Below, piece after piece: positions 30,711-59,217 of a DNA stretch of 64,000 bases. Under the pieces are notes generated by a model. The model worked only from the letters and a program-made list of their open reading frames with translations, did not search any database and was not told the origin of the DNA. The DNA comes from Ignavibacteria bacterium (GTDB lineage: Bacteria; Bacteroidota; Ignavibacteria; Tepidaquicellales; Tepidaquicellaceae): positions 62,001-126,000 of the forward strand of contig JABAQZ010000011.1 in the NCBI GenBank assembly GCA_019187405.1, in the 5' to 3' direction. Within the stretch, counting starts at the first letter, position 1. The number at the start of each line of letters is the position of its first letter. A program made the position numbers and the translations under genes.

Positions 30711-31826
30711 ATGCGAGAGAACGACAAGAAATTTAAAACCGTCATAGACAAAAACACCTTTTATTGTTACAACCCTGCTTTCCAAGACAGTTATGAAAGC
30801 TATATCAATTCATTAAAGGAAACACTTCTCGTTCTTAAAAATCAAGTTGAAACACAAGGACTAAAAAAACAGCATTTTGAAGACCTGTTTGCCGACAAAG
30901 AGAATGGACTTAGGGCTTTACTTGCCCTGACTGGTTTTGCCAACGAGAGTTTGAAACGACTTATTACAGTTGTTCGGGTTGCCGACAATAAAGAACTTTC
31001 TAAACTGCTTCACAAAGACAAATGGGCTGACAACGAAAACAGCAACGACCTTAAAGAGTGGGGAGACAAAAAAATAATCAATCTGTTAAAGGACAATTCC
31101 TATTTCCGAAAAGGAATTGTAAACCTGTTTTTTGAAGGTTCAACAACACCGTTTTTGGCGCATACACTTTCACTATTTGAACTTAAGAAACTGAGTATTT
31201 CAAAATTGAAATTTGAAATACCTGCAATGATTGACACGCTTGTCCGCTACAAAGAAAAAGGATCATATTCGGGGCAAGCCGAAAATAATCCAGAGTATTT
31301 TATTGCTGAAATTCTTCGTGAGGCAGGAGTAAAATTTGAGAAGGGTGATTTGACCGAGCTTTTCAAAAATGAGCCAGTTGAAAAGCGGACGATGGACTTC
31401 ATTATTCCGAGCAAAAAATCGCCCCAAATAATAATTGAAAGTTCATTCCTCGTTACAACATCTTCGGGACAAGGTGATAAATCAAAAACCGAAGGGAACT
31501 TCAAGAAACTGATTGCAAAATATTACCGAAAAGCAAAGTTTATCGGCTTTGTTGACGGCATAGGTTGGTATGTGCGCAAGGGTGATTTAATGAGAATGGT
31601 TACCGCTTACGATGATGTTTTTACATTTCACAAAGACGAAGTTGAACGCTTCAAAGAAAATAAAAATTATTATGGCGTTACCCTGCTTCTGCAATCGCAC
31701 AAGCCAACACACAAGCAGGGTCGGGCTTTCCGCTACAATCTTTTTGCTCACCGCTCAATGCCAACACAGCAAAAAGGATTTCCGCTGCAATCCCTAACGC
31801 AACGCAACCTTAAATTAGCAGCATAA
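30711..31826 (+). CDS. Probable type II restriction endonuclease
   Basis: 371 residues. The middle (about 195-280) looks like a PD-(D/E)XK nuclease of the DpnII-like kind: NPEYFIAEILREAGVKFEKG, then MDFII with an Asp, IIIESSF with a Glu, and TSSGQGDKSKTEGNFKKL, followed by GFVDGIGWYV. A DNA methyltransferase lies 0.8 kb downstream, which fits a restriction-modification pair. The last 45 or so codons run through a palindromic repeat element (31675-31800), so the natural C-terminus may have been replaced. ATG start. The family is a judgement by eye; the recognition sequence is unknown. Confidence 0.6.
   Translation: MRENDKKFKTVIDKNTFYCYNPAFQDSYESYINSLKETLLVLKNQVETQGLKKQHFEDLFADKENGLRALLALTGFANESLKRLITVVRVADNKELSKLLHKDKWADNENSNDLKEWGDKKIINLLKDNSYFRKGIVNLFFEGSTTPFLAHTLSLFELKKLSISKLKFEIPAMIDTLVRYKEKGSYSGQAENNPEYFIAEILREAGVKFEKGDLTELFKNEPVEKRTMDFIIPSKKSPQIIIESSFLVTTSSGQGDKSKTEGNFKKLIAKYYRKAKFIGFVDGIGWYVRKGDLMRMVTAYDDVFTFHKDEVERFKENKNYYGVTLLLQSHKPTHKQGRAFRYNLFAHRSMPTQQKGFPLQSLTQRNLKLAA
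31675..31800. repeat. Nested palindromic element overlapping the endonuclease 3' end
   Basis: The outer arms GCGTTA (31675-31680) and TAACGC (31795-31800) enclose two hairpins. CCCTGCTT (31681-31688) pairs with AAGCAGGG (31713-31720), and TTTTTGCT (31741-31748) pairs with AGCAAAAA (31768-31775). A near-direct repeat TTTCCGCTRCAATC occurs at 31727-31740 and 31779-31792. The whole can fold as a three-way cruciform. I recall similar intergenic elements in Bacteroidota genomes, and the shape also resembles an integron attC site, but neither can be confirmed here. Confidence 0.7.
31803..31814. repeat. 12-bp direct repeat, second copy (mate at 30640-30651)
   Basis: CGCAACCTTAAA, identical to the copy upstream of the endonuclease gene. 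This copy lies within the last codons of that gene, two bases after the palindromic element ends. Confidence 0.4.
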
Positions 31827-36838: not shown

Positions 36839-37696
36839 ATGTCTAAGAATTATTCAGATTCAGATTGGACTCTTGAGATTAAACCGGTATCAGGCTGGTT
36901 TAATTTTCACATAAAGGATGTCTGGAGATACAGGGACCTTCTGTTAATGTTTGTTAAGAGAGACTTTGTTGCTGTATATAAGCAGACAATATTGGGACCG
37001 TTCTGGTTCTTTATTCAGCCGATACTTACTACAATCACATTCACAATTGTATTTGGCAAGATTGCAAAAATTCCGACAGAAGGTCTGCCTCCTATGCTAT
37101 TTTATATGTCGGGAGTTGTGTGCTGGAATTATTTTTCGGATTGTCTGACAAAAACATCTTCTACGTTTATTTCGAATGCTCATATTTTTGGCAAGGTATA
37201 TTTCCCACGGCTTGTAAGCCCTCTTGCAAACATTACGTCACTATTGATGAAGTTCGGAATACAGATGCTGCTGCTGACATGTTTTATCTTTTATTTCATT
37301 GCAAACGATGCGGATGTTCATCCAAATATTTATATACTGATTACTCCTTATCTTATTCTGCTTATGGCAGGATTGGGACTAGGATTCGGAATTATAGTTT
37401 CGTCACTTACCACAAAATACAGAGATCTGACTTTCTTAGTTGGATTCGGCGTTCAGCTGCTTATGTATGCAACGCCGGTAATTTATCCTGTTTCCGCGCT
37501 GCCGGATGAATACAAATCTCTTGTCAAACTTAATCCAATGACATCAATAATTGAAACATTCAGATTCTCGTTTCTCGGCGCTGGAAGTTTTGATGCATCG
37601 AATTTACTTTATACTACAGTATTTGTGATTTTTGTGCTTTCAATAGGTATTGTTATTTTTAACAGAGTTGAAAAAACTTTTATGGATACTGTCTAA
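36839..37696 (+). CDS. wzm: ABC-2 type polysaccharide export permease (Wzm)
   Basis: 285 residues with about six membrane helices. The N-terminal part RDLLLMFVKRDFVAVYKQTI leads to LGPFWFFIQP and the first helix, a conserved Wzm/TagG signature; a late NPMTSIIETFRF is also typical. With the ATPase 12 bases downstream it forms the exporter that moves finished, lipid-linked glycan across the inner membrane. ATG start. The gap before it (36724-36838) is AT-rich. Confidence 0.9.
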   Translation: MSKNYSDSDWTLEIKPVSGWFNFHIKDVWRYRDLLLMFVKRDFVAVYKQTILGPFWFFIQPILTTITFTIVFGKIAKIPTEGLPPMLFYMSGVVCWNYFSDCLTKTSSTFISNAHIFGKVYFPRLVSPLANITSLLMKFGIQMLLLTCFIFYFIANDADVHPNIYILITPYLILLMAGLGLGFGIIVSSLTTKYRDLTFLVGFGVQLLMYATPVIYPVSALPDEYKSLVKLNPMTSIIETFRFSFLGAGSFDASNLLYTTVFVIFVLSIGIVIFNRVEKTFMDTV

Positions 37697-37708
37697 ATTT
37701 ATCTCATA

Positions 37709-39037
37709 ATGAGTTCAGTAATTAAAGTCGATAATCTTTCAAAGATATACAGGCTGGGTTTGATAAGCAGAAGAACTATAGCCGAAGATCTTAATAAATT
37801 CTGGTCAAGAATAACCGGGAAGGAAAATCCATATCTGAAAATCGGAGAAACAAATGTCCGTTCAGTAAAAGGAAAATCAGATTATATCTGGGCTTTGAAA
37901 GATATCAGCTTTGAAGTTAAAGACGGAGAAAGATTTGGAATAATAGGCAAAAACGGAGCAGGCAAGTCAACGCTTCTGAAAATCCTTTCTAGAGTTGCAA
38001 GTCCTACCGAAGGTAAAATCAGAATTAAAGGAAGAGTGGCGAGTCTTCTTGAAGTAGGTACAGGATTTCATCCTGAACTAACCGGAAGAAACAATATTTT
38101 TCTTAACGGTTCGATACTTGGTATGACTCAAAAAGAAATCAAGAGCAAATTTGACAGCATAGTGGATTTTTCTGGCGTTGAAAGATACATTGATACTCCG
38201 GTAAAGAGATATTCGTCGGGAATGTATGTCAGGCTTGCTTTTGCAGTTGCCGCGCATCTTGAACCAGAGATACTCATTGTAGATGAAGTGCTTGCCGTTG
38301 GAGACGCCGAGTTTCAGAAAAAGTGTTTGGGTAAAATGCATGACGTTTCCGAGAAAGAAGGAAGGACGGTGCTTTTTGTCAGCCACAATCTTCAGGCAAT
38401 AAAAAATCTTTGTCAGAAAACGATTATTCTTAATAACGGCGAGCTATTTGCCAGCGGTGAAACTGAAGAAGCTTTGAAGAGATATAATCAGCTTAACCGA
38501 GAAATCAAAATTACTGCCGAGACGCATGTTAATAATATCAAAAACAGGAGGGGAAGCGGAGCGATAAGATTTACAGGTATCGATGTGCTCGATGACACAG
38601 GAAATAAAAGATTTGAATATGAACTCGGCGAAACGGTTAGATTTAAAATATCATACAGGACATTCAAGGAAATGCAGGGTATCACGTTAATAGTTGCATT
38701 GCTATCCGGACTTTCAAGAGAATGCCTGACACTTGCCTGTTATGACATTGTTAAATCAAAAGTGGAACCTGGCGTAACAGGCGAAGCAGTCATAGAATTT
38801 AATGATATAAACATAAAGCCAGGTGAATATCCTCTTTATTTTGAATTGATCGATAACAAACTCAACTCTTATTCAAAGGATGTAGTAGATGATATCACGG
38901 CTCCGCTTGTAATAAAGAGAAATGATTATGCAGAAAAGAAAAGTTTTGATCCATCAAAACCATCGGGATTTTTTGAGACACCATCCCGACTTACATTAAA
39001 TGAAATATTTAGAGAAAGTGATCGTATAAGAGCTTAA
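37709..39037 (+). CDS. wzt: ABC transporter ATPase with glycan-binding tail (Wzt)
   Basis: 442 residues. Residues 1-250 are the ATPase: Walker A GKNGAGKST (80-88), the signature YSSGMYVRLAFAVAAH, and Walker B ILIVDEVLAVGD. The N-terminal half carries the family insert after IYRLGLISRR. Residues about 270-442 form a C-terminal beta-sandwich (from GSGAIRFTGIDVLDD onward) of the kind that recognises the modified end of the glycan in O9a-type systems. It acts with the permease just upstream. A second Wzt with a very similar start begins at 63552. Confidence 0.92.
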   Translation: MSSVIKVDNLSKIYRLGLISRRTIAEDLNKFWSRITGKENPYLKIGETNVRSVKGKSDYIWALKDISFEVKDGERFGIIGKNGAGKSTLLKILSRVASPTEGKIRIKGRVASLLEVGTGFHPELTGRNNIFLNGSILGMTQKEIKSKFDSIVDFSGVERYIDTPVKRYSSGMYVRLAFAVAAHLEPEILIVDEVLAVGDAEFQKKCLGKMHDVSEKEGRTVLFVSHNLQAIKNLCQKTIILNNGELFASGETEEALKRYNQLNREIKITAETHVNNIKNRRGSGAIRFTGIDVLDDTGNKRFEYELGETVRFKISYRTFKEMQGITLIVALLSGLSRECLTLACYDIVKSKVEPGVTGEAVIEFNDINIKPGEYPLYFELIDNKLNSYSKDVVDDITAPLVIKRNDYAEKKSFDPSKPSGFFETPSRLTLNEIFRESDRIRA

Positions 39038-39076: not shown

Positions 39077-40096
39077 ATGAGCAATACTAATTCATCAGGA
39101 AACATAGCAGTTAAATTATTAGGCAAAGATTTCTTAGACAAGTATCCTCTGCTTTTTTCGGGAGGAACCATTGCAAACATGCTTGGATATAATATTTTTA
39201 GAACTTTGTATATGAATCTTTGGAGGACAAAGCCTTCAAGAGTTTCCAAAGAGTATCAGAAATATGCGGACATTCTGGAAAAAGACGGCATAGTAGTGAT
39301 ACCGGATTTTTTTCCAAAAGAGCAGTTTGATGCAATTAAAAAAGAATTCGATGAACTTTATGCCGGCTGGTCTCCATTTGATTTCAACGAAAAAGATTTT
39401 AGTAAAAGACAGAATGATTTTCCGGAATATTTCAAAACCATAGCTGAAAAAATTGTAACTCCCGAGACTCCTGCATTCACGGAATATTTTTTAAAGAATC
39501 CGTTTATAAATGAGCTTGCAACTTCCGTAGTGCACAGGAAGAGCAGAATAACGCCGTATCATCACTTCTGGTTTTTGCAGAGAAGAAATCTTGACGGAGA
39601 AAATGTCGGTTATCTTCATACTGCCGCTTATCCGCATGCAGATGTCTTTTATCCGACAATAAAAGTATTTCTTTATCTGAATGATGTTGACGAATCAAAT
39701 GCTGCATACATTTATGCAAAAGGATCACACAAGTTAAGTATAAAGAGATTATGGTTTGAATATAAACTAAGCATTAAGTATTCAAGAACAAAGGATGACA
39801 GAGTAACAGATGAGGAACTGGCTAAGATTGGTTTTTATCCTGAATCAATTTGCGGAAAGGCAAACACACTTTTCATTTCAAATAACATGGGATATCACAA
39901 CAGGGGAGACTTTTCAAATTTGAAACCGAGACAGACAGCTCAGCTTGATTTTCGTCATCTCGAGACATGGAGAAATACATTATTTAGAAATGAAAAAGAT
40001 ATTTTTTCAAGGTTGTCGAGAAAGTTTGTTAAATCATTTGACAAATCATTAAAACAAAATAAGCTTGCAAATATCAGTAATAATAACATGTCATAA
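39077..40096 (+). CDS. Phytanoyl-CoA dioxygenase-like Fe(II)/2-oxoglutarate oxygenase
   Basis: 339 residues, ATG start. The metal site H-x-D is HAD (187-189) in AAYPHADVFYPTIKVFLYL, and the distal His is His274 in GYHNRGDF with an Arg shortly after (PRQTAQ). DESNAAYIYAKGSHKL is a typical PhyH segment. Members hydroxylate varied small molecules; in a glycan operon a sugar or lipid carrier substrate is conceivable, but nothing visible decides it. The following glycosyltransferase overlaps by 32 bases. Confidence 0.82.
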   Translation: MSNTNSSGNIAVKLLGKDFLDKYPLLFSGGTIANMLGYNIFRTLYMNLWRTKPSRVSKEYQKYADILEKDGIVVIPDFFPKEQFDAIKKEFDELYAGWSPFDFNEKDFSKRQNDFPEYFKTIAEKIVTPETPAFTEYFLKNPFINELATSVVHRKSRITPYHHFWFLQRRNLDGENVGYLHTAAYPHADVFYPTIKVFLYLNDVDESNAAYIYAKGSHKLSIKRLWFEYKLSIKYSRTKDDRVTDEELAKIGFYPESICGKANTLFISNNMGYHNRGDFSNLKPRQTAQLDFRHLETWRNTLFRNEKDIFSRLSRKFVKSFDKSLKQNKLANISNNNMS

Positions 40097-43351: not shown

Positions 43352-44404
43352 ATGACGATACTTGAAGTATATAAAAATTACAGAGCTGATATAATAAATA
43401 AACCTTATGTAATAGCTGAAGCCGGAGTTAATCATGAGGGAGACATCGAGCTGGCAAAAAGGCTTATACATGAGGCAGCAGAAGGCGGCGCACATGCGAT
43501 AAAGTTTCAGACATACAAAGCAGAAACGATAGCCTCGAGACATAGTCCGTCTTATTGGGATTTAAGCAAGGAGCCTACGAGAAGCCAGTTTGAGCTTTTT
43601 AAAAAGTATGATAAATTCTGGAAAAAAGAATTTGAGCAGCTGAAAAAGGAATGTGATAAATCGGGGATTGAATTTATGTCAACGCCATTTGATTTTAATG
43701 CGGCAGATTTTCTAAATGACATGATGCCTGCTTTCAAAATATCTTCATCCGACCTGACTAACACACCATTCATCAGGCATATTTGTAAATTTGGCAAGCC
43801 GGTAATTTTATCAACAGGCGCATCAAATATTTCTGAAATTATACAGGCAACAGAAGTAATCAGCGAATATGGAGTTCCGTTATCATTAATGCACTGCATT
43901 CTCAATTATCCGACTATCGACGAGAACGCAAATCTCGGGATGATACTAGATTTGAAAAAGAAATTTCCCGAAACAATTCCGGGATATTCCGATCATACGA
44001 TGCCGGGAAATATGGACGTACTTAAGACGGCTTATTTGCTTGGCGCCGTAATACTTGAAAAGCATTTTACATTTGACAAAACATTGCCGGGAAACGATCA
44101 TTATCATGCAATGGACAAAGACGATTTAAAATTATTTTTCAAAGAAACTGAAAGAGTTTTCAAATTGCTCGGCAGTTTCCGCAAGAGACCAATTCCCACA
44201 GAAGAAACATCGAGACAGAATGCCAGAAGGAGTCTTGTATTAAGCAAGAAAATACAGGCTGGTGATATAATTTCGCAGGAGCATCTCACATACAAAAGAC
44301 CTGCAAGCGGTATTAGTCCGAAATACATTGATGAAGTGATCGGGAAAAAAGCTGTTGCAGACATTGAGCCGGATACGATCCTGAAATGGAATATGATAGA
44401 GTAA
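43352..44404 (+). CDS. neuB: NeuB-family nonulosonic acid synthase with SAF domain
   Basis: 350 residues, ATG start. YVIAEAGVNHEGDIELAKRL, KFQTYKAE, STPFD, KISSSDLTN, LSTGAS, GYSDHT and EKHFTFD are the ordered motifs of sialic, legionaminic and pseudaminic acid synthases. The last 65 residues form the antifreeze-like SAF domain (ARRSLVLSKKIQAGD). The enzyme condenses phosphoenolpyruvate with a six-carbon amino sugar to give a nine-carbon keto acid. Which of the three classes it belongs to cannot be fixed by eye. It is the core of the module from 40716 to 52981. Confidence 0.9.
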   Translation: MTILEVYKNYRADIINKPYVIAEAGVNHEGDIELAKRLIHEAAEGGAHAIKFQTYKAETIASRHSPSYWDLSKEPTRSQFELFKKYDKFWKKEFEQLKKECDKSGIEFMSTPFDFNAADFLNDMMPAFKISSSDLTNTPFIRHICKFGKPVILSTGASNISEIIQATEVISEYGVPLSLMHCILNYPTIDENANLGMILDLKKKFPETIPGYSDHTMPGNMDVLKTAYLLGAVILEKHFTFDKTLPGNDHYHAMDKDDLKLFFKETERVFKLLGSFRKRPIPTEETSRQNARRSLVLSKKIQAGDIISQEHLTYKRPASGISPKYIDEVIGKKAVADIEPDTILKWNMIE

Positions 44405-45759: not shown

Positions 45760-46539
45760 TTGAAAAAAATAAAAACGGTTGCTTGCATTGAAGCAAGGAT
45801 GACTTCGAGCCGTCTGCCCGGGAAAGTGATGATGGAGTTATGCTGCAGACCGGTATTGGATATTCTCATCGAAAGACTTTCATTGTCGAAATTTACAGAT
45901 GAAGTTATCATTGCGACGACGTCAAATAAAACTGACGATAAAATTGAAGAGCTTGGCAGAAAGCTTGGAATATTTGTTTACAGGGGAAGCGAGGATGATG
46001 TACTTGACAGAGTAGTAAGAGCAGTCGAATCTGTTAATGCAGATGCGGTGATCGAGATAACCGGCGATTGTCCGCTAATGGATCCTGCAGTAGTGGATTA
46101 TACGGCCGGCGAGTTTATAAAAAATTATCCAATGTATGATTATGTAACAAACATCGGTTATATCGATGATGAGAAAAGAGAAATACCGGTTGGTATGGAT
46201 GTAAGGGTTTTTAAATTTGACGAGCTGAAAAAAATAAGCGGATTAACTAATGATCCCGAAGACAGAGAGCATGTGTCTTTATATTTTTTCAGAGGCGGGA
46301 AAAATAAATACAGATTAAAGAATGTCAAGACGCCGGATAAATGGAAGCGGGAATACAATCCTAGATTAACTCTCGATACAAGAGAGGATTATGAAGTTAT
46401 CAGCAGAATATATGAGACATTAAGCGAATACAATCCGCGATTTGGTTTAGAAGACATACTTAAATTTCTTGACAGTAACAGAGATATTGCGGAAATAAAT
46501 TCGGGCGTAATTCAGAAAACGGTAAAAGACATTGGTTAA
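45760..46539 (+). CDS. SpsF-type cytidylyltransferase-like protein (copy 2)
   Basis: 259 residues, starting at TTG 45760, one base after the preceding stop. ACIEARMTSSRLPGKVMMEL and EITGDCPLMDPAVVD match copy 1 at 40716. DREHVSLYFF and LTLDTREDYEVI are also conserved. One of the two copies may serve the NeuB product and the other a different sugar. It overlaps the next gene by eight bases. Confidence 0.84.
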   Translation: MKKIKTVACIEARMTSSRLPGKVMMELCCRPVLDILIERLSLSKFTDEVIIATTSNKTDDKIEELGRKLGIFVYRGSEDDVLDRVVRAVESVNADAVIEITGDCPLMDPAVVDYTAGEFIKNYPMYDYVTNIGYIDDEKREIPVGMDVRVFKFDELKKISGLTNDPEDREHVSLYFFRGGKNKYRLKNVKTPDKWKREYNPRLTLDTREDYEVISRIYETLSEYNPRFGLEDILKFLDSNRDIAEINSGVIQKTVKDIG

Positions 46540-47506
46540 ATTTTCTGCAGTTCTCATTGGATGCGGCGACATTGGATATTTATTTGACCGCGACAAAAAG
46601 CGTAAAGGAGCTTTAACTCACTTTAAGGCATTTAGAGATTCAGGGAAGTTTAATCTTATTGCAGTATCGGAAATAAGAGAAGAAATCAGGGAAGAAATTC
46701 AAAGTAAGTATGGAATCCCGGCATTTGGAGATTACAAAAAAATGTTAAAAGAAATCAAGCCTGACATAATTGCGATTGCTTCAGACGACGAGACTCATTA
46801 TCCGATGCTTTGCGAATCATTGAAATGCAAACCAAAGCTTGTATTTATTGAAAAGCCGCTGGCATTGAAATATGAAGAAGTTAAAAATGTTATTAAGAAT
46901 TTTAAGAAAGAAAAAATACTGCTTCAGGTAAATTACACCAGAAGATTTTTAAAAGAGTTTGACGAAGCGGGTACGTTTATTAAAAGCGGGAAAATCGGTA
47001 AGCCGGAATCGGCGGTACTTTATTACTCGAGAGGACTAACGCATAATGCATCGCATTATATTGACTTGATGAACAGTTACATTGGCGAGACGGAAAAGAA
47101 TCTCATAAAAATATCGGAGAAAAAGGGGATAGGGGATGCTGATAGTACTGTAAGTTTTGATTTAATTTATAAAAACGGATTTGAGATGAGATTCATAGGT
47201 CTCAATCCAACAAAGCTTGCATTTGCGGAGATTGACATTGCAGGAACATCGGGAAGGGTAAGGATTAACTGCAATAACGAGATAGAGTATTACAAAGTAA
47301 GAGAAAACAGATTATTCAAGGGATACTATTCTTATGAGTTATTCAAAAGCGTAGTTATAGATTTCACAAAAGCACTGCCTAATGCGGTGGAAAATATTTA
47401 CAGTGCGCTTTGCGGAAAAGAAAATCTCAAATCGTCCGGAGAGAACTCATTAAAAATTTTTGAATTAATAAAAAGAATCAGGGAGAAAGAGTTATGTCGA
47501 AATTAG
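46532..47506 (+). CDS. Gfo/Idh/MocA family oxidoreductase (copy 2)
   Basis: 324 residues from TTG 46532. KFSAVLIGCGDIGYLFDRDK is the cofactor loop and FIEKPLALKYEE the Lys-Pro segment, followed by LQVNYTRRF. It lies directly after SpsF copy 2, as copy 1 lies after SpsF copy 1, but the two oxidoreductases are not close in sequence. The next gene, an aminotransferase, overlaps by 13 bases, so a keto sugar made here could be aminated at once. Confidence 0.82.
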   Translation: MVKFSAVLIGCGDIGYLFDRDKKRKGALTHFKAFRDSGKFNLIAVSEIREEIREEIQSKYGIPAFGDYKKMLKEIKPDIIAIASDDETHYPMLCESLKCKPKLVFIEKPLALKYEEVKNVIKNFKKEKILLQVNYTRRFLKEFDEAGTFIKSGKIGKPESAVLYYSRGLTHNASHYIDLMNSYIGETEKNLIKISEKKGIGDADSTVSFDLIYKNGFEMRFIGLNPTKLAFAEIDIAGTSGRVRINCNNEIEYYKVRENRLFKGYYSYELFKSVVIDFTKALPNAVENIYSALCGKENLKSSGENSLKIFELIKRIREKELCRN

Positions 47507-48813
47507 CATTGTTTGGCGGCAAGCCTGTAAGAACCGAAATTTATCCTCACAGCAACAGCATAGGAGAAGAAGAAAAAAGAGCTGTCATAAAGGTACTCGA
47601 ATCGGGAAATCTTTCGCAGTATGTGGGTTCATGGAACGACGATTTTTACGGCGGACCAACCGTAAGGCAGTTTGAAAAAGACTGGAGCGGGTTTTTTGGC
47701 GTGAAGCATACGATTGCGGTTAACTCAAATACTTCGGGATTGTACGCATGCATTGGAGCATGTGATATCGGTCCCGGCGATGAAGTGATTGTTTCACCTT
47801 ATACCATGACAGCAGGAGCGATAGCTCCGCTGATTTACGGAGCAGTGCCCGTGTTTGCAGATATAGATGAAGATATTTTTTGTCTCGATCCGAAAAGTAT
47901 TGAGGCAAACATTACTCCGAGAACCAAAGCAATACTCGTAGTTCACATCTGCGGACATCCGACCGATATGGATGAAGTAATGAGAATTGCATCGAAGTAT
48001 AAGCTGAAAGTGATTGAAGACTGCGCTCAATCTCCAAATGCCGAATACAAAGGCAGGAAAGTTGGGACAATCGGCGATGTAGGGATTTTCAGTTTGAATT
48101 ATCACAAGCACATTCACACAGGCGAAGGCGGAATGATTACGACGAACAACGATACAATTGCGGAAAAAGTACAGCTTATCAGAAACCATGGCGAAGCAGT
48201 AGTCGAAGGCAAGAAGACAAAGGATATTTACAACACCTTTGGATTTAATTACAGGATGACCGAGATGGAAGCGGCAGTAGGGATTGAGCAGTTGAAGAAG
48301 CTCGTTCCGCTAGTAAATAAGAGAATTGAGAATGCGAATTATTTATCGGAGAGATTAAGAGAACTTCCGGGAATAATTCCGCCGGTAGTAAAAGAAGGAT
48401 GCACACATGTTTATTACATGCATACATTCAAGTACAAAAAAGAAATAACGGGAGTGAGCAGGAATTTATTTGTTGATGCCGTGAAAGCCGAACTTCCATT
48501 GATGAGACTTAGAGAGACCACGCCTATTATGGGCGTAGGATTTGCGCCGCCGCTATATCTTCAGCCGATTTATCAGCAGAGACTTCATAAATGTTCATTC
48601 AACTGTCCGAGATATGAAGGTGAAGTTTCGTATGAAAGAGGTTTGTGTCCTGTTGCAGAGAAGATGTATTTTGAAGAAGTCTTTACGCATGAATACATGA
48701 GACCGACATTTACAAAGAAAGAGCTTGATGAAGTGTTGACTGCATATTTTAAAGTATATGAGAATCTCGATGAATTAAAAAAGCATGAGTCAAAAAATGC
48801 AGTTGCAAACTGA
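47494..48813 (+). CDS. DegT/DnrJ/EryC1 aminotransferase with cysteine-bearing tail
   Basis: 439 residues, longer than the usual 370-400. The PLP lysine lies in SLNYHKHIHTGEGGM, and VIEDCAQSPNAEYKG is the Asp segment. An insertion near the end (about 365-395) has three Cys in KCSFNCPRYEG and RGLCPVAE, seen in a subgroup related to spore-coat SpsC or to larger C-terminally extended members. It starts MSKLALFGGKPVRTEIYP. It likely aminates a sugar of the nonulosonate module. ATG start. Confidence 0.85.
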   Translation: MSKLALFGGKPVRTEIYPHSNSIGEEEKRAVIKVLESGNLSQYVGSWNDDFYGGPTVRQFEKDWSGFFGVKHTIAVNSNTSGLYACIGACDIGPGDEVIVSPYTMTAGAIAPLIYGAVPVFADIDEDIFCLDPKSIEANITPRTKAILVVHICGHPTDMDEVMRIASKYKLKVIEDCAQSPNAEYKGRKVGTIGDVGIFSLNYHKHIHTGEGGMITTNNDTIAEKVQLIRNHGEAVVEGKKTKDIYNTFGFNYRMTEMEAAVGIEQLKKLVPLVNKRIENANYLSERLRELPGIIPPVVKEGCTHVYYMHTFKYKKEITGVSRNLFVDAVKAELPLMRLRETTPIMGVGFAPPLYLQPIYQQRLHKCSFNCPRYEGEVSYERGLCPVAEKMYFEEVFTHEYMRPTFTKKELDEVLTAYFKVYENLDELKKHESKNAVAN

Positions 48814-49851
48814 ATGGATAAAAAAATTCTTATGGCATTTGATGATCCCGGCGGCGGTCTTGCATTAACAAGTCTTATAGAGCCATTAAAAAATGAAGGT
48901 ATAAAAATTAGATTGTATTCGGGACTACTAAGCAGGAAATTTACGGGAGATTATGAATCGGAAATTCTAGGCAGCAACATTGACAAGCAGACAGCCGAAA
49001 AAATTTTGGAAGAAAATGAACCTGACATGTTAATTACCGGCACAAGCGCTGGTAATGCGGAGCAGTTATTAAGGAATGATGCATTTGAAAAAAACATTAC
49101 GTCGGTTGTGATTTTGGATTTCTGGAAAGATTACGGAAGAAGATGGTATTTTGCGGATTACAATATTGAGGAAACTAAGGATTATGTTTTTGTAATGGAT
49201 GAATGCACCAAAGCTGAAATGGAGAAAGAAGGTTTTCGGGAAAAGTTTCTGCTTGTTACAGGTCATCCATATCTTGACAAGATTTTTAATTACGGAAATA
49301 ATAAACCGGTTGTTCATGGCAGGGAAAATCATTATTTATTTTTATCACAGCCTTTGAATGTAATAGGAATTAAAAATTACGCCATACATCCGCTGGAGTA
49401 TTTACTAAATTCTTTAAAAACACTTACAGCAGAAAAAGGAAATATAAAATTAACTGTGAAGCTGCATCCCGTAGAGACAATTACAACTGAGCTTGAAAAT
49501 GCGGTTCAAAAGTTTCATTCAGAAGTATTAAGCATAAGAATCATAAAAAACGAAATCAGTATTGACAATCTCATAGACGAGTCGGAGATAGTAATCGGGT
49601 TTAATACAATTGCAATGTTTGAAGCTCGTGCAAAAAACAAAAGAACAATAAGTTTGAAAGCAGTGAAGGTAAAAGAATCTCTTGACAAAGCGATGATGAG
49701 AGCGGGAATTGAAATCGTTGAGATAAATACCAAAGACATTACAAGCGTATTAAAAAATAAAACTGAGTTACATATTCCTCAAAACTTCCATAAAGGAGCT
49801 ATAGAAAATTGCAAAAGAGAAATATTAAATCTTCTCGGCAGAAAAAATTAG
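48814..49851 (+). CDS. GT-B-like protein of unknown specificity
   Basis: 345 residues, ATG start. The N-half begins KKILMAFDDPGGGLALTSLI, and the C-half has LTVKLHPVE, a lone SEIVIGFNTIAMFEARA and a final strand, suggesting two Rossmann-like domains as in UDP-GlcNAc 2-epimerases, PseG-like hydrolases or glycosyltransferases. A mid-part reads FLLVTGHPYLDKIF. I do not recognise one family with certainty. In this context it could hydrolyse or epimerise the precursor sugar, or transfer the finished acid. Confidence 0.6.
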   Translation: MDKKILMAFDDPGGGLALTSLIEPLKNEGIKIRLYSGLLSRKFTGDYESEILGSNIDKQTAEKILEENEPDMLITGTSAGNAEQLLRNDAFEKNITSVVILDFWKDYGRRWYFADYNIEETKDYVFVMDECTKAEMEKEGFREKFLLVTGHPYLDKIFNYGNNKPVVHGRENHYLFLSQPLNVIGIKNYAIHPLEYLLNSLKTLTAEKGNIKLTVKLHPVETITTELENAVQKFHSEVLSIRIIKNEISIDNLIDESEIVIGFNTIAMFEARAKNKRTISLKAVKVKESLDKAMMRAGIEIVEINTKDITSVLKNKTELHIPQNFHKGAIENCKREILNLLGRKN

Positions 49852-50396
49852 AGAAAGCAAAGCCATTTCTTTTTGGGAAAAACATTTTACTTAGTCCGTT
49901 AACTGAAGCAGACATTTCCGATGACTACATAAGCTGGTTTAACGACAGGGAAGTATGCAGGGATAATTCTCATGCCGTATTTCCGAATACATATAAAAAA
50001 ACCGCAGCTTATTTGAAATCAATAGAGAACAGCAAAACGGATTTTGTATTTTCAATAAGATGGAAAAAAAATAAACTTCACATAGGCAATGTTTCTTTAC
50101 AGAATATCAACTGGGTAAACAGGTCGGCGGAAATAGCAATCATTATCGGAAATAAAAATTATTGGAACAAAGGTGTTGGAAGCGAAGCATACCAGCTGAT
50201 TTTGGATTATGGATTCGGGACATTGAACCTGAACAGAATAGCATCTGGACAGACAATTACAAATAAAGGAATGATAAAAGTATGCAAGAAAAACGGTATG
50301 AAAAGAGAAGGATTATTGAGACAGGTTATATATAAAGAGGGGAAATATCTTGATGCGGTAATTTTTTCAATTTTAAAAAAAGAATTCGAAAAATAA
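49809..50396 (+). CDS. GNAT-family N-acetyltransferase
   Basis: 195 residues from TTG 49809, overlapping the previous gene by 43 bases; an ATG start would remove the first conserved strand. ILLSPLTEADISDDYISWFN, NRSAEIAIIIG, NYWNKGVGSEAY (acetyl-CoA loop) and MIKVCKKNGMKREGLLRQ match the RimJ/RimL and PseH/LegH-like group. It would acetylate an amine on a nucleotide sugar of the nonulosonate pathway. The aminotransferase two genes upstream would supply that amine. Confidence 0.82.
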   Translation: MQKRNIKSSRQKKLEKAKPFLFGKNILLSPLTEADISDDYISWFNDREVCRDNSHAVFPNTYKKTAAYLKSIENSKTDFVFSIRWKKNKLHIGNVSLQNINWVNRSAEIAIIIGNKNYWNKGVGSEAYQLILDYGFGTLNLNRIASGQTITNKGMIKVCKKNGMKREGLLRQVIYKEGKYLDAVIFSILKKEFEK

Positions 50397-50403
50397 AATT
50401 ATT

Positions 50404-51603
50404 ATGGACAAGGAAAATTCGGGAAAGCCTATAATGGAAGGAGTGCAGTATTGTATCCGATGCTGCATACCATCGACGCAGGAGGGAGTCAAGTTTGATG
50501 AATTGGGAATTTGTCAGGCATGTCAATCATCAGAGCAGAAGATACACATAAACTGGGTAGAGAAGGAGAAAGAGTTAAGAGAAATATTAAATCAGGCAAA
50601 AGCAAATGCCGGGAATAATTATGACTGCATAATTCCGATAAGCGGCGGTAAAGACAGTACATTTCAGCTTCATGTGCTCACAAAAGTTTATGACATGAAG
50701 CCACTTGCCGTTACATTCAGCCATAACTGGTTTAGCGAGACAGGCTGGTATAACCTGATAAATTCGCTTGAAAAATTTAATGTCGATCATATAATGTTTA
50801 CACCCAGCAGAGATCTTGTAAACAGACTTGCAAGAAGATCTCTCGATGCAATCGGAGATACATGCTGGCATTGTCATGCAGGAGTAGGAGCATTTTCAAC
50901 TCAGGTTGCAGTTAGGTTCAACATTCCACTTCTGATTTTCGGAGAATCAATTGCTGAAGCGTCGGGTCGTTCATCTTACAAAAATCCTCTTATGGAGTTT
51001 AATGCAGAATATCTTTTAAAAGTATCCACGAAGAGAAATCCGATTGAGATGGTTTGCGATTACATTTCGGAAAAAGAAATGAAGCCGTTTTTCTTTCCGA
51101 CAATGGAGGAAATGGAGAAAGCAGGGATCAGGCTTCTTCATTTAGGCGATTACATTTTCTGGGATGACGAGAGGCAGATGGAATTTGTCCGTGATACATA
51201 CGGCTGGAAGGAAACGGAAGTCGAAGGCACATACAAAGGATACAAAAGCGCAGAGTGTATTATGCCGGGCATGCATGATTTTACAAATTATCTTAAAAGG
51301 GGATACGGGAGATCAACTTATCAAGCAAGCATTGATGTGAGAAACGGACTGCTGACAAGAGAAGAAGGGTTTGATCTTTCCAGAAAATACGACACTGAAA
51401 TTCCCGAATCACTTGAGTATTATCTTAAAATTACCGGGATGTCGAAGGAAGAATTTTATAAAATCATGAAAGAGAAAAGACTTGATGAAATAAAAAACAT
51501 AGAGCTTCCTGTAATTCAGAAAACAAGAAAGAATAAGGAAAGGATATTTCCATTTGCACAACAGATAATTGAAAAAGAAGAAAAATCAAAAAGCAATGAG
51601 TGA
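50404..51603 (+). CDS. N-acetyl sugar amidotransferase (WbpG/PseA family)
   Basis: 399 residues, ATG start. Paired cysteines YCIRCCIPS and GICQACQ (residues 17-40) form a likely zinc site. The PP-loop ATPase motif is SGGKDS (80-85), and DTCWHCHAGVGAFSTQVA and LIFGESIAEASGRS follow. WbpG-type enzymes turn an N-acetyl group into an acetamidino group using ATP and ammonia, as in acetamidino forms of pseudaminic and legionaminic acid. The usual HisH/HisF-like ammonia supply is not encoded nearby; an amidase gene overlaps instead. Confidence 0.9.
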   Translation: MDKENSGKPIMEGVQYCIRCCIPSTQEGVKFDELGICQACQSSEQKIHINWVEKEKELREILNQAKANAGNNYDCIIPISGGKDSTFQLHVLTKVYDMKPLAVTFSHNWFSETGWYNLINSLEKFNVDHIMFTPSRDLVNRLARRSLDAIGDTCWHCHAGVGAFSTQVAVRFNIPLLIFGESIAEASGRSSYKNPLMEFNAEYLLKVSTKRNPIEMVCDYISEKEMKPFFFPTMEEMEKAGIRLLHLGDYIFWDDERQMEFVRDTYGWKETEVEGTYKGYKSAECIMPGMHDFTNYLKRGYGRSTYQASIDVRNGLLTREEGFDLSRKYDTEIPESLEYYLKITGMSKEEFYKIMKEKRLDEIKNIELPVIQKTRKNKERIFPFAQQIIEKEEKSKSNE

Positions 51604-52981
51604 TGTACTGATAAATACTGAAAAAAGCATATTTCTCGAGACCTCCATAAAAAATTTAATCTCAATGATTCAGAGTGGAGAGACAGATCCGCTCGAAATA
51701 GCAGATGCATGCATAAAATTTACCGAGAAGTATAATGAAAAATACAAAGTATGGGTTACATTTGACAAAGAAAAACTAAAACGTGAAAGTGTTTTATCAT
51801 TAGAGAGAATTGAAAAAGGAGAAAAGATCAGGGAGCTTGAATCAATTCCCATCGGTGTAAAGGACATATTCAACACTGTAGATTTTCCGACACAGATGGG
51901 AAGTCCATTATGGAAAGGATTTACGCCGGGAAATGATGCGCGCGTGATATATTATTTAAAAATGGCAGGAGCATTAATTCCGGGAAAAACCGATACGGCA
52001 GAATTTGCAGTGCATGCTATCGGCAACTGTCTTAATCCTCATGATATTTCAAGAACACCCGGCACATCATCCAGCGGATCATCCGCAGCAGTTGCTCTAG
52101 GAATGGTACCGGCAGCGATAGGGACACAGACAGCGGGTTCTATATCAAGACCTGCGAGTTTTTGCGGAGTTTACGGATGCAAACCATCTTTTGGATTAAT
52201 ACCAAGAACTGGAATGCTTAAGACTACGGACAGTCTTGATACGATCGGATTTTTTACATCAAAATACGAAGACTTGATAACGATGTTTGAGACAATGCGC
52301 GTACACGGATCAAATTATCCCGTAAGCGACGGAGCTTTGTCGGATATTAAAAGGCAAAGCAGACAAAACAGGAAAAATTGGAAAGTAGGATTTGTAAAGT
52401 CTCATGTTTGGGACTTTTCGCCTGAATATGCAAAACAGTCTATTCTGGATTTTGTGGAAGAGCTAAGGAAATTGCCGGAGATTGAAGTGTCCGAAGCAGA
52501 GTTACCTATTGCTGTAAAAAATTCACACAACATTCACGAAACGATTTACGATAAAACATTATCATATTATTTTCAGGAAGAGCTGAAAGAGCCGGAGCAT
52601 GTCTCGGAAATTATGAACGAAATATTTTTAAGAGGAAAAAAGATATCGAAAGAAAAATATCTTGATGCGCTAACCGAGCAGGAAAAACTGATTCACCAAA
52701 TGGATGAATACATGAAAGATTACGATGTGTTGATTTCATTGAGCACATCGGGAGAAGCTCCCATGAGGGATGAACAGGAAAAACCCGATCCATCGCTGAT
52801 ATGGACACTGACGCACTTACCTGTAGTATGTTCGCCAAAATTTTTATCACCGGACAGACTTCCTTTTGGAGTTCAGTTTACTGCAAGAAAATATAACGAT
52901 TATCTTTTGTTTAAATTTACTGATTACCTGAGGTATTCAGATTTGATACCCGAAGGTACTTATCCGGAAATAAAATTTTGA
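51596..52981 (+). CDS. Amidase signature family protein (GatA-like)
   Basis: About 461 residues from ATG 51596, which overlaps the preceding stop by eight bases; an in-frame TTG 27 bases upstream is less likely. IPIGVKDIFNT holds the catalytic Lys, GTSSSGSSAAVALGM the cis-Ser, and GTQTAGSISRPASFCG the nucleophilic Ser. Amidases release ammonia from amides. The overlap with the sugar amidotransferase suggests that it supplies ammonia to it, or acts on its product. GatB/GatC homologs are not present. Confidence 0.87.
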   Translation: MSDVLINTEKSIFLETSIKNLISMIQSGETDPLEIADACIKFTEKYNEKYKVWVTFDKEKLKRESVLSLERIEKGEKIRELESIPIGVKDIFNTVDFPTQMGSPLWKGFTPGNDARVIYYLKMAGALIPGKTDTAEFAVHAIGNCLNPHDISRTPGTSSSGSSAAVALGMVPAAIGTQTAGSISRPASFCGVYGCKPSFGLIPRTGMLKTTDSLDTIGFFTSKYEDLITMFETMRVHGSNYPVSDGALSDIKRQSRQNRKNWKVGFVKSHVWDFSPEYAKQSILDFVEELRKLPEIEVSEAELPIAVKNSHNIHETIYDKTLSYYFQEELKEPEHVSEIMNEIFLRGKKISKEKYLDALTEQEKLIHQMDEYMKDYDVLISLSTSGEAPMRDEQEKPDPSLIWTLTHLPVVCSPKFLSPDRLPFGVQFTARKYNDYLLFKFTDYLRYSDLIPEGTYPEIKF

Positions 52982-54656: not shown

Positions 54657-55662
54657 TCAGCAGGACACATTAAAATTTTCAGTTTTAATTTCCACTTATA
54701 ACAGAGCGGAATCGATAATAAAATGTCTTGAGTCGCTTGTCAATCAAAATTATCCGAAAGAAGATTATGAAGTAATTGTTCTTAACAACAATTCAAAAGA
54801 CAATACTGAAACTGCCGTCGAAAAATTTATTAAAGAACACAAAGATACGAACATCAGATATTATTTCGTTCCAAGAGCAGGACAGGTATATGCCAGACAA
54901 ATCGGAATTCTTGCGGCAAAGAATGAAATCCTTTCCTTTACGGATGATGATGCAATACTAATGCCTGACTGGATTAAGGAAATAGCCAATGTTTTCAATC
55001 TTAACAAGAAAGCAGTCGGTGTAGCGGGAAAAATAGAAATCAAATGGGATGAGACTCCTCCTGATTGGATAAGAGATTATGAAACTCAATTGGGAAAACT
55101 GAATTACGGAGACGAGATACTGTATAAGAAGGGACTATACATGAATGCAGGAAATTTAAGTATTAAAAAAGAAGTGCTGATAGAAGTTGGCGGATTCAAT
55201 CCGGAAATGGTCGGGGAGTGGCTTATCGGAGACGGAGAAACCGGGTTATGGTTAAGACTTAAAAACAGGGGTTATCTTATCGGCTGGGCTCCGAAAGCTT
55301 TAATGCTTCATTGTCAGATAGCAAAGAAGAATGCGACAATTGATGATATAAAAAGAAGATTTATAAATAACGGGATATGCAAACCTTACAACATTTATGC
55401 GATAGATAAAGGAGGCGCATTTGCCTTATTTAAAAATATGCTGAAAGCTATGAGAAACGGAATATACTGGCAGTACAGGAAAGCAGGAAATTTAATAAGA
55501 GGAAGAAAAAAAGGAGTTTACGAAGCAATGTTTAAAAGCGCATATCATTTTGCTCAAGTCAGATATACATTAAAACTTTTTACGGACAAGGAATTTAGAA
55601 GAGCAATTACACGTGAAGACTGGATTGTAAAAAATTATAAAACACCGGTGGCGGCATTATGA
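54649..55662 (+). CDS. Family 2 glycosyltransferase (GT-A)
   Basis: 337 residues from ATG 54649, which overlaps the previous gene by eight bases (ATGTATAA); an in-frame TTG nine codons upstream is possible. [33 protein letters not shown] and FTDDDAIL show the GT-A nucleotide and metal sites. [20 protein letters not shown] and [12 protein letters not shown] are acceptor-side motifs. Adds a sugar in the cytoplasm; specificity unknown. The next gene overlaps by four bases. Confidence 0.88.
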
Positions 55663-56957
55663 AAAAAGTTTATGTTGGCATGAGCGCTGATCTGATTCAT
55701 CCCGGTCATCTAAACATAATCAGCGAAGCAAGAAAACTTGGAACAGTTGTAGTCGGATTGTTGACTGATAAAGCGATTGCAAGTTATAAACGGCTGCCGT
55801 ATTTAAATTATGAGCAGAGAAGAGTTATAATTGAAAATATTAAAGGAGTGGAAAGCGTAATTCCGCAGGAGACGCTTGATTACGTTCCCAATCTAAAAAA
55901 AATAAAACCGGATTTTGTAGTTCACGGAGATGATTGGAAAACCGGAGTTCAGTCAAAGACAAGACAAGATGTAATTGACACACTGAAAGAATGGGGAGGC
56001 AAACTGATTGAAATTGAATATACAAAAGGAATTTCATCTTCAATTCTTAATGCCGGAATAAAGGAAGTCGGTACGACGCCGGAAATAAGAATGAAGAGAT
56101 TGAAAAGACTCATTGATTCAAAATCCATAGTTAGACTAATCGAAGTTCATAATGGTCTGACGGGACTGATTGCAGAAAATTTTTCCATACAAAAAAACAA
56201 TCAGGTCAGGGAATTTGACGGCATGTGGCTGAGCAGTCTTACGGATTCAACAGCCAAAGGAAAGCCGGATATTGAAGCAGTTGACCTGACCTCCAGGCTC
56301 CAGACACTGAATGACATTGCGGAAGTTACAACTAAACCTATAGTATTTGACGGCGATACCGGCGGAAAGACGGAGCATTTTGTATTCAGCGTAAAAACTT
56401 TGGAAAGGCTTGGAGTATCAGCAGTCATTATCGAAGATAAAATCGGACTTAAAAAAAATTCGCTTTTCGGAGCTGACGCCGGACAGACTCAGGACTCAAT
56501 AGAAAATTTCTGTAATAAGATACTGGCTGGAAAGAGGTCGCAGATAACGGAGGACTTTATGATAATTGCAAGAGTAGAGAGTCTTATACTCAAGGCAGGT
56601 CTTGATGATGCCGTGAAAAGAGCAAAGGCATATATAAATTCGGGAGCAGACGGAATTATGATACACAGCAAGGAAAAAAATCCCGATGAGATTTTTGCTT
56701 TCTGTAAAGAGTATTCAAAGTTTGAAAAAAAACCTGCACTTGTTGCTGTACCTTCAACTTTCAACGCTGTTTATGAAAAAGATTTATGTGATGCGGGAGT
56801 AAACATTGTAATATATGCGAATCAGCTCATAAGAAGTGCATATCCTGCAATGATAAAGACGGCAGGACAGATTCTTGAAAATGAAAGATCTTACGAAGCA
56901 GACGAAAACATGATGTCAATCAACGAGATAATTAAACTAATCCCGGGCGGAAGCTGA
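55659..56957 (+). CDS. aepX: Cytidylyltransferase-PEP mutase fusion
   Basis: 432 residues, ATG start. Residues 1-135 form a nucleotidyltransferase with HPGH (14-17) and KGISSSIL, like glycerol-3-phosphate cytidylyltransferase. Residues about 145-432 are phosphoenolpyruvate mutase, with DGDTGG (231-236) and the hallmark [10 protein letters not shown] (259-268). The mutase makes phosphonopyruvate, the C-P bond-forming step. The fused domain could activate the final phosphonate with CTP. It overlaps the decarboxylase gene by one base. A fusion of this kind is known in bacteria with phosphonate glycans, as far as I recall. Confidence 0.92.
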
Positions 56958-58084
56958 TGATTGAACCTAAGGAAGTATATGATTCTTTTATTCAAAACGG
57001 GATTAAGTTTTTTACGGGAGTTCCGGATTCTTTGCTGAAAGATTTTTGCTCATACATTTCAGATAATGCGGGAAACGAAAATCATGTTATCAGCACGAAT
57101 GAAGGCTCGGCTATTGCCTTAGCCGCAGGTTATTATCTTGCAACAAGCCAGCCTGCATTGGTTTACATGCAAAATTCCGGATTAGGAAATTCCGTAAATC
57201 CGATATTGTCTCTTGCCGACAGTGAAGTTTACGGCATACCTATGATATTGATGATTGGTTGGCGCGGTGAGCCCGGCAAAAAAGACGAACCTCAGCATGT
57301 AAAGCAGGGAAGAGTAATGCTCGGAATTCTTGATGCAATGGAATTACCATATTTTATTTTGGACAAAGATTCAGACAACATAAATGAATTAATCCAAAAT
57401 GCAGTCAGACTATCCTGTGAAAAAAATTCTCCGGTTGCTTTAATAGTACGAGAAGGCGCATTTAAGAAGTATGATCTGAAAAATAATGACACAAATAATT
57501 ACACGTTGAGCAGAGAAGAAACAATCGGTCTTCTTATAGAGAATCTTGACGGTGATGAAATAATTATATCGACAACAGGTAAAGCATCACGTGAGTTATA
57601 TGAATACCGTGAAAGAAAAAATCAAAGTCATGAAAAGGATTTTTTAACTGTGGGTTCTATGGGACACAGTTCGCAAATTGCGCTCGGCATTGCGTTTCAG
57701 AAAAAAAACAAGAAGGTATATGTGATTGACGGAGACGGGGCATTGCTGATGCATTTGGGAGCAGCTGCTGTTTGCGGTACTGCTGCGCCGGATAATTTCA
57801 GACACATACTGATAAATAACGGTTCGCATGAATCAGTTGGCGGTCAGCAAACTGCAGGATTTAAAGTCAATTTTCTTGAAATGGCAAAAGCATGCGGATA
57901 TAAAAGCAGTTCATCAGCCGAAACTCGGGATGATGTTTTGAAGGAAATCGGAAAATTGAAATCCGAGAAAGGTCCGTTATTTCTTGAGATAAAAGTAAAC
58001 AAAAATTCGAGATCAGATTTAGGGAGACCTACGGCTTCACCTTGTCAGAACAAAGAAATATTCATGAAGTATTTATCGGATTAA
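56957..58084 (+). CDS. aepY: Phosphonopyruvate decarboxylase
   Basis: 375 residues, ATG start. Thiamine diphosphate sites: GVPDSLLKDF at the N-terminus, STNEGSAIALAAGYYLA (with the catalytic Glu), and the magnesium/diphosphate motif DGDGALLMHLG followed by NNGSHESVGGQQT. It turns phosphonopyruvate into phosphonoacetaldehyde, which pulls the unfavourable mutase reaction forward. The gene is sandwiched with one-base overlaps between the mutase and the dehydrogenase. Confidence 0.93.
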   Translation: MIEPKEVYDSFIQNGIKFFTGVPDSLLKDFCSYISDNAGNENHVISTNEGSAIALAAGYYLATSQPALVYMQNSGLGNSVNPILSLADSEVYGIPMILMIGWRGEPGKKDEPQHVKQGRVMLGILDAMELPYFILDKDSDNINELIQNAVRLSCEKNSPVALIVREGAFKKYDLKNNDTNNYTLSREETIGLLIENLDGDEIIISTTGKASRELYEYRERKNQSHEKDFLTVGSMGHSSQIALGIAFQKKNKKVYVIDGDGALLMHLGAAAVCGTAAPDNFRHILINNGSHESVGGQQTAGFKVNFLEMAKACGYKSSSSAETRDDVLKEIGKLKSEKGPLFLEIKVNKNSRSDLGRPTASPCQNKEIFMKYLSD

Positions 58085-59217
58085 TGCAGGAAGAATATTT
58101 TGGCGAAGGAATGATAAACAGGCTGCCTGCTTTTCTTAAAAGAATTGGTTGTAAAAAAATTTTTTTAGTTACCGGGAAAAAATCTTTTGAAAAATCTGGA
58201 GCAAGAGACAAAATTTTTAATGCAGGTTTTGATTTTGAATATGTACGATTTAGTGATTTTACGGAAAATCCGAAAACAGAAGATGTGGAAAAGGGAATTA
58301 AGCAATTAAAAAATTCTCAATGCGATACAATAGTGGCAATCGGCGGAGGAAGCGTTATAGACATGGCAAAACTTATTAATATATTTTCTGCAAACAGCAT
58401 GGATGTAAATTCATTCATTTCAAATTCAATCAGGATTGAGAGGAAAGGAAAACCGCTGACAGCCATTCCGACTACTTCGGGAGCAGGAAGCGAAGCTACT
58501 CATTTTGCGGTATTATATAATGATAAGGAAAAATATTCTGCTGCACATGAATTTATTCTTCCGGATCTTGTAATAATAGATCCTGAGCTTACGTACGATC
58601 TTACTCCGCAGCAGACAGCTGTTTCCGGAATTGATGCATTAGCGCAGGCGATTGAATCTCACTGGAGCGTAAATTCTACAGATGAATCAAAAAAATATTC
58701 ATCATCAGCAATTAAACTTGTGATAGACAATCTTGCAGATGCTGTTAAAAATCCAAAGCCGGAATCAAGAAGAGAAATGTCAAGGGCTGCCAATCTTGCA
58801 GGTAAAGCGATTAACATTACAAAAACAACGGCTCCGCATGCATTGTCATATACAATGACTTCATACTTTGGAGTAACTCACGGTCAGGCTGTAAGCATTA
58901 CGCTTGGAGAATTTATGAAATATAATTTTGAAGTTTCTGAAACTGATGTAACAGACAAAAGAGGAGCAGAATATGTTAAAAGAAGCATACTTGAAATTGC
59001 GGAAATAATGGGATGCTCAAGTGCTTATGATGCAGCGGATAAGATAAAAATTCTTATGAAGGATACAGGGCTGAAAACAAGTCTGAAAGGTCTGGGAATT
59101 TCATCTTCTGAATCATTGAAGCTGATAGCCGAGAATGTGAACACGGAAAGATTGCAGAACAATCCCAGAAAGCTTACAAAAAGCGGACTTGAAGTTATTA
59201 TCAGAAACATTATTTAA
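58084..59217 (+). CDS. Iron-containing alcohol dehydrogenase, probable phosphonoacetaldehyde reductase
   Basis: 377 residues from ATG 58084, which shares one base with the decarboxylase stop; a TTG 42 bases upstream is less likely. GGGSVIDMAK is the nucleotide loop, PTTSGAGSEAT the second loop, and metal ligands lie in SGIDALAQAIESHWS and TTAPHALSY...GVTHGQAV. Homologs (PhpC and similar) reduce phosphonoacetaldehyde to 2-hydroxyethylphosphonate. No AEP transaminase gene is present, so hydroxyethyl- rather than aminoethylphosphonate is the expected product. Confidence 0.85.
   Translation: MQEEYFGEGMINRLPAFLKRIGCKKIFLVTGKKSFEKSGARDKIFNAGFDFEYVRFSDFTENPKTEDVEKGIKQLKNSQCDTIVAIGGGSVIDMAKLINIFSANSMDVNSFISNSIRIERKGKPLTAIPTTSGAGSEATHFAVLYNDKEKYSAAHEFILPDLVIIDPELTYDLTPQQTAVSGIDALAQAIESHWSVNSTDESKKYSSSAIKLVIDNLADAVKNPKPESRREMSRAANLAGKAINITKTTAPHALSYTMTSYFGVTHGQAVSITLGEFMKYNFEVSETDVTDKRGAEYVKRSILEIAEIMGCSSAYDAADKIKILMKDTGLKTSLKGLGISSSESLKLIAENVNTERLQNNPRKLTKSGLEVIIRNII

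Follow-up and report, generated by a model that had tools for sequence, protein, structure and literature searches.

The WbuX and amidase genes of the window overlap

The window analysed here is a stretch of 64,000 nt from the genome of an Ignavibacteria bacterium (assembly GCA_019187405.1, contig JABAQZ010000011.1, positions 62,001 to 126,000, forward strand). It encodes a WbuX-family sugar amidotransferase whose gene runs into that of an amidase. The features of the pair are given below in window coordinates; "clade" denotes the amidase-linked WbuX proteins surveyed in a later section.

50404..51603, + strand: WbuX/NASAT-family N-acetyl-sugar amidotransferase, 399 aa (TIGR03573; ATG start)
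50641..50658, + strand: PP-loop codons of WbuX (SGGKDS, residues 80-85, S80-S85), invariant in the clade
51596..51603, + strand: ATGAGTGA, the 8 bases shared by the end of WbuX and the start of the amidase
51596..52981, + strand: amidase-signature enzyme, 461 aa, malonamidase-E2-like (PF01425); proposed ammonia source for WbuX
51860..51862, + strand: codon of catalytic Lys89 of the amidase, conserved in 66/66 clade amidases
52067..52069, + strand: codon of cis-Ser158 of the amidase triad, conserved in 66/66 clade amidases
52139..52141, + strand: codon of nucleophile Ser182 of the amidase, conserved in 66/66 clade amidases
52148..52150, + strand: codon of amidase Arg185, aligned to Arg158 of malonamidase E2; 65/66 clade amidases

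The WbuX protein scored 336.7 bits against TIGR03573, above the curated cut-off of 203.2. The motifs of the NASAT family are a tetracysteine (CxxC...CxxC) and the PP-loop SGGxDS (PMC10607449). In the window protein the zinc tetracysteine is formed by C17, C20, C37 and C40, which are invariant across the clade. LpNASAT from Legionella pneumophila (PDB 8WEX) was the only solved structure to match (approximately 330 residues, E 2.4e-43); the paper reporting it describes the enzyme alone and does not name an ammonia donor (PMC10607449).

The amidase reading frame is intact, with a likely ATG start at 51596 and a stop at 52981. Both the PF01425 domain (234 bits, cut-off 27) and the Lys-cisSer-Ser triad place the protein in the amidase-signature (AS) family. 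An earlier note on this DNA had described a WbpG/PseA-family gene overlapping a GatA-like amidase by eight bases. The overlap was borne out, 51596-51603 being shared by the two reading frames, while "GatA-like" proved a loose description. The protein is not GatA, since it scored 197.4 bits against TIGR00132 (cut-off 481.1); the true GatA of the same genome is a separate gene (C1:333541, 484 bits). On sequence grounds, malonamidase-E2-like amidase-signature enzyme is the better label.

Malonamidase E2 of Bradyrhizobium japonicum was the best PDB match of the window amidase and is its closest solved relative, with the triad and the carboxylate-binding Arg158 both kept. The predicted fold of a homologue that is naturally fused to WbuX (described below) matched malonamidase E2 with Z 48 and 33% identity, and GatA with Z 44-46; the matches to this fusion were mostly amidases, so that the comparison says little about its WbuX half. 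Malonamidase E2 stands alone in its structures, with no synthetase partner, and at approximately 33% identity the use of malonamate is not to be assumed.

The 66 clade amidases also possess invariant residues of their own, including H140, K209, T210, D212, Y325 and W403. Two GatA glutamine-recognition residues, the Arg of the EVKRRI motif and the Asp of NDIYT, were not conserved in the alignment of clade amidases. A paralogue of GatA with a GatA-type glutamine site was thus ruled out, both by the score below cut-off and by the missing glutamine-site residues; for the EVKRRI Arg, the role in glutamine recognition is described in PMC4027206. The amide donor could be glutamine bound in another manner, or another small amide.

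The pair lies in a sugar and glycan cluster

Upstream of the pair, all on the same strand, are genes of a nonulosonate-type sugar pathway, most of which recur among the 80 loci of the clade.

43352..44404, + strand: NeuB-family synthase of the upstream sugar pathway (PF03102 and SAF); homologues at 41/80 clade loci
45760..46539, + strand: SpsF-type cytidylyltransferase (PF02348); 23/80
46532..47506, + strand: Gfo/Idh oxidoreductase (PF01408); 53/80
47494..48813, + strand: DegT-family aminotransferase (PF01041); 63/80
48814..49851, + strand: conserved sugar-pathway protein without a Pfam match
49809..50396, + strand: GNAT acetyltransferase (PF13302); 64/80

The protein without a Pfam match keeps its place beside NeuB, Gfo/Idh and DegT homologues at other loci. 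The GNAT acetyltransferase is the probable maker of the N-acetyl group modified by WbuX.

The same glycan cluster includes a phosphonate module (window 55659-59217, + strand) comprising a cytidylyltransferase/PEP-mutase fusion, a phosphonopyruvate decarboxylase and an iron alcohol dehydrogenase. Homologues of the PEP mutase and decarboxylase also lie downstream of WbuX and the amidase in several MAGs of Ignavibacteria and related bacteria, for example at L072-L074, L077 and L143. An ABC-2 membrane protein, a Wzt-type ATPase and then a weakly PhyH-like protein are encoded at window 36839-39037 and 39077-40096 (+ strand), and the cluster looks like one for an ABC-exported polysaccharide. A Flavo-1 RNA (RF01705) was detected on the - strand at window 31715-31803 (60.4 bits, gathering score 42).

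The genome lacks detectable HisH and HisF

In canonical WbuX systems, ammonia is generated by the glutaminase HisH and reaches WbuX via the channel of HisF. The earlier note had weighed against its own proposal the chance of distinct hisH2/hisF2 genes elsewhere in the genome. None was found in the 3.78 Mb assembly, rated 98.1% complete, and the dedicated HisH and HisF genes of a canonical WbuX-HisH-HisF system are therefore missing from it. No HisH scored above cut-off, the sole weak match being an intact GMP-synthase-like protein; nor was a HisF/WbuZ present, the one strong His_biosynth match being HisA-like. This HisA-like protein (G000:C1:194390-195079, L004) stands alone, neither HisH nor HisF having been detected in the genome, and it scored slightly under the cut-off for HisA.

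An amidase accompanies one clade of WbuX and HisH/HisF the others

Sampling of the clade started from two seeds, both with an amidase, and scanning 84,980 species yielded 80 loci. Many of these come from MAGs, and since in a few cases a single genome contributes two fragments, the counts are slightly inflated. A locus was treated as informative if downstream sequence was present or an amidase was a neighbour (72/80). The survey that the earlier note had proposed, for adjacent amidases and absent hisH/hisF, came out in its favour: an amidase was found at 71 of the 72 informative loci, and HisH/HisF serving the clade WbuX at none of them. The amidase homologues were 37-70% identical and almost always immediately downstream on the same strand, with -23 to +61 bases between the two genes at most loci; at L128 (L128:6540-9083) the amidase lies upstream of WbuX. 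Loci bearing an amidase span 23 named phyla of bacteria and archaea.

At eight of the nine remaining loci the contig ends within WbuX, and in four of these eight genomes an amidase of 45-65% identity is present on a different contig. The single complete exception is a Collierbacteria locus (L121:8001-9095), where WbuX stands without an amidase. HisH/HisF genes occurred around clade WbuX only at L097, L101 and L139, there near a second, non-clade WbuX. HisH above cut-off was absent from 10 of 34 other clade genomes tested, most of them MAGs. No clade match was found in phages or viral contigs, and plasmids held only WbuX of at most 33% identity; a phage or plasmid origin was rejected on these grounds.

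The controls were 60 WbuX loci from outside the clade but within the same phylum, examined with flanks of approximately 6 kb where the contig allowed. HisH was present at 52 of these, HisF at 53 and either one at 54, and none of the 60 had an amidase beside WbuX. The difference between 71/72 and 0/60 excludes a chance neighbour. Within the window's own family, all four non-clade WbuX were accompanied by HisH and HisF, and the clade members examined there by the amidase. Six control loci (L156, L159, L162, L168, L192 and L212) had neither HisH or HisF within approximately 6 kb nor an amidase, and a search for a third donor type beside four of the six revealed nothing obvious. WbuX at these six loci may be served by more distant genes or a third donor, or may use ammonia free in solution, so that WbuX may be able to work on free ammonia alone.

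In a tree of 124 WbuX proteins, the amidase-linked members formed one side of a branch with an SH-aLRT of 100. This separate branch has invariant residues of its own, for example in CWHCH and KRG.

Partner genes differ on one sugar core within a genus

Genomes of one genus allowed the partner genes to be compared on a shared sugar core. In G205 the core is accompanied by a clade WbuX and the amidase (L107). The same kind of core in G311 is accompanied by a non-clade WbuX, HisH and WbuZ/HisF, with no amidase; the DegT protein of G311 shares 85% identity with its counterpart at the amidase locus L094 and 74% with the one at L093. Two further genomes, G225 and G145, have other core genes together with DegT proteins that share 71% and 65% identity with the G311 protein, and in the 19 kb examined neither WbuX, HisH/HisF nor amidase was found. 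Since these two genomes have the core but lack WbuX and amidase alike, the amidase is disfavoured as a member of the sugar core itself. Taken together, the four genomes indicate that the amidase goes with this type of WbuX, not with the sugar core, and that it replaces HisH/HisF.

WbuX and the amidase are fused in some species and diverge together

Three loci of the clade encode WbuX and the amidase as a natural fusion, a single reading frame of 870-875 aa, and one of the three is from an isolate genome.

L097: fusion, Solidesulfovibrio alcoholivorans DSM 5433
L103: fusion, Desulfarculus sp.
L114: fusion, Thalassospira sp.

The L097 fusion was modeled with AlphaFold2. The paired rows of the alignment came from the three fusions and from seven pairs of adjacent genes, translated across one or two stop codons. 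The prediction had a mean pLDDT of 92.1 and a pTM of 0.91, despite a disordered linker at residues 391-408. As a control, the adjacent GNAT-WbuX pair of the same operon was subjected to the same procedure and gave a pLDDT of 90.4 and a pTM of 0.65, from an alignment of seven paired rows that was less varied. Given this difference in pTM, the packing of WbuX against the amidase is a confident prediction that does not arise simply from linking two adjacent genes.

Pairwise distances among WbuX proteins and among their amidases were correlated (r=0.83; Mantel test, 0/500 shuffles as high). Over all loci, the correlation of WbuX with DegT was 0.47, with GNAT 0.30, with Gfo 0.47 and with NeuB 0.24, and the values for neighbouring genes overall lay between 0.2 and 0.55.

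A proposed two-component sugar amidotransferase

Amidotransferases consist of a synthetase and an ammonia-making module. Judged from gene content and the predicted structure, the amidase probably releases ammonia for WbuX in place of HisH/HisF. The pair would then be a two-component N-acetyl-sugar amidotransferase, present as one chain in some species. In an ATP-dependent step at its PP-loop, WbuX would activate the carbonyl of an N-acetyl group on an amino sugar; in the window this sugar is probably an intermediate of the nonulosonate-type pathway whose genes lie directly upstream. The Ser-cisSer-Lys amidase would free ammonia from a small amide, and within the WbuX-amidase complex this would be transferred to displace the activated oxygen, giving an acetamidino group. 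The amide hydrolysis, the delivery or channelling of ammonia, the amidine product and the identity of the sugar are what we infer. The suggestion of the earlier note that an amidase stands in for HisH/HisF thus finds support in the mutual exclusion, the swap within one genus, the natural fusions and the want of hisH/hisF in the window's own genome, with delivery itself presumed.

The earlier note had also raised the possibility that the amidase edits the acetamidino group. In a broader form, the amidase would act on the sugar either ahead of WbuX or after it, for example by editing the acetamidino group or a different N-acyl group, with the clade WbuX using free ammonia. AS enzymes hydrolyse many amides, and varied ones are among the structure matches; the clade amidases lack the GatA glutamine-site residues; and fusion and co-divergence would equally suit two consecutive enzymes. 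Editing does not, however, account for the absence of HisH/HisF exactly where the amidase is present, nor for a core with WbuX, HisH and HisF but no amidase in G311 and with none of these in G225 and G145. We consider it unlikely, and retain it because fusion and co-divergence, taken alone, fit it while the exclusion pattern does not.

Less probable still is a reading in which WbuX draws its ammonia from solution and the amidase serves as an obligate partner with a structural or regulatory role, or does no more than increase the local ammonia level, with no channelling. The confident predicted packing would agree with such a role, as would L121 and some control loci, where WbuX has no donor gene nearby; yet the triad is kept in 66/66 clade amidases, and a partner with a purely structural function would have no need of it. 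Finally, the clade WbuX might have abandoned acetamidino chemistry and, jointly with the amidase, form a different group, such as an amide on a carboxylate. That it forms a separate branch with its own invariants would suit this reading, and we know of no member of the clade that has been assayed. The window WbuX nevertheless scores well above the family cut-off and keeps the family motifs, a GNAT gene precedes WbuX at many loci, and clade WbuX substitutes for the HisH/HisF type in the same sugar core, making a change of chemistry highly improbable. Supply of ammonia by the amidase is the reading that we favour.

Relation to known systems and significance

The proposed enzyme shares with WbpG/WbuX plus HisH2/HisF2 (WbuY/WbuZ) the WbuX family, PP-loop, tetracysteine and type of cluster, and the sugar core occurs with either version. 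It differs in that the window clade is without HisH/HisF and is instead paired with, or fused to, an amidase-signature enzyme. A further parallel is GatCAB/GatFAB, in which the AS enzyme GatA passes ammonia by a tunnel to the ATP-using GatB (PMC4027206). The fold is shared, and here too an AS enzyme is proposed to release ammonia for an ATP-using partner. That partner, however, is a PP-loop sugar enzyme rather than GatB, and the amidase has a GatA score below cut-off and lacks the glutamine-site residues.

No description of a WbuX-amidase partnership was found in the open-access literature, subscription papers lying outside the search. In that literature no paper joined amidase, acetamidino and amidotransferase, and none naming WbuX or N-acetyl sugar amidotransferase mentioned an amidase. 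The component families are known; the new part is the swap of the donor module on a WbuX amidotransferase. Our analysis suggests a second, undescribed route of ammonia supply to bacterial and archaeal sugar modification. More tentatively, the pair could belong to a second class of sugar amidotransferase, one assembled independently and occurring in more than 20 phyla, in which an AS enzyme channels ammonia from a non-glutamine amide directly to a PP-loop synthetase, the donor fold being swapped outside the tRNA-dependent GatCAB; we hold this wider claim to be possible but somewhat doubtful.

If correct, one synthetase family would have exchanged a triad glutaminase and barrel channel for an AS enzyme, with both versions serving the same pathway in one genus. 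A widespread amidase, which general models label just "amidase" or weakly GatA-like, would gain a function. The natural fusions offer a test system in a single protein. The pairing would also aid the prediction of acetamidino sugars in candidate-phylum bacteria, SAR86, Pelagibacter, Prochlorococcus and archaea.
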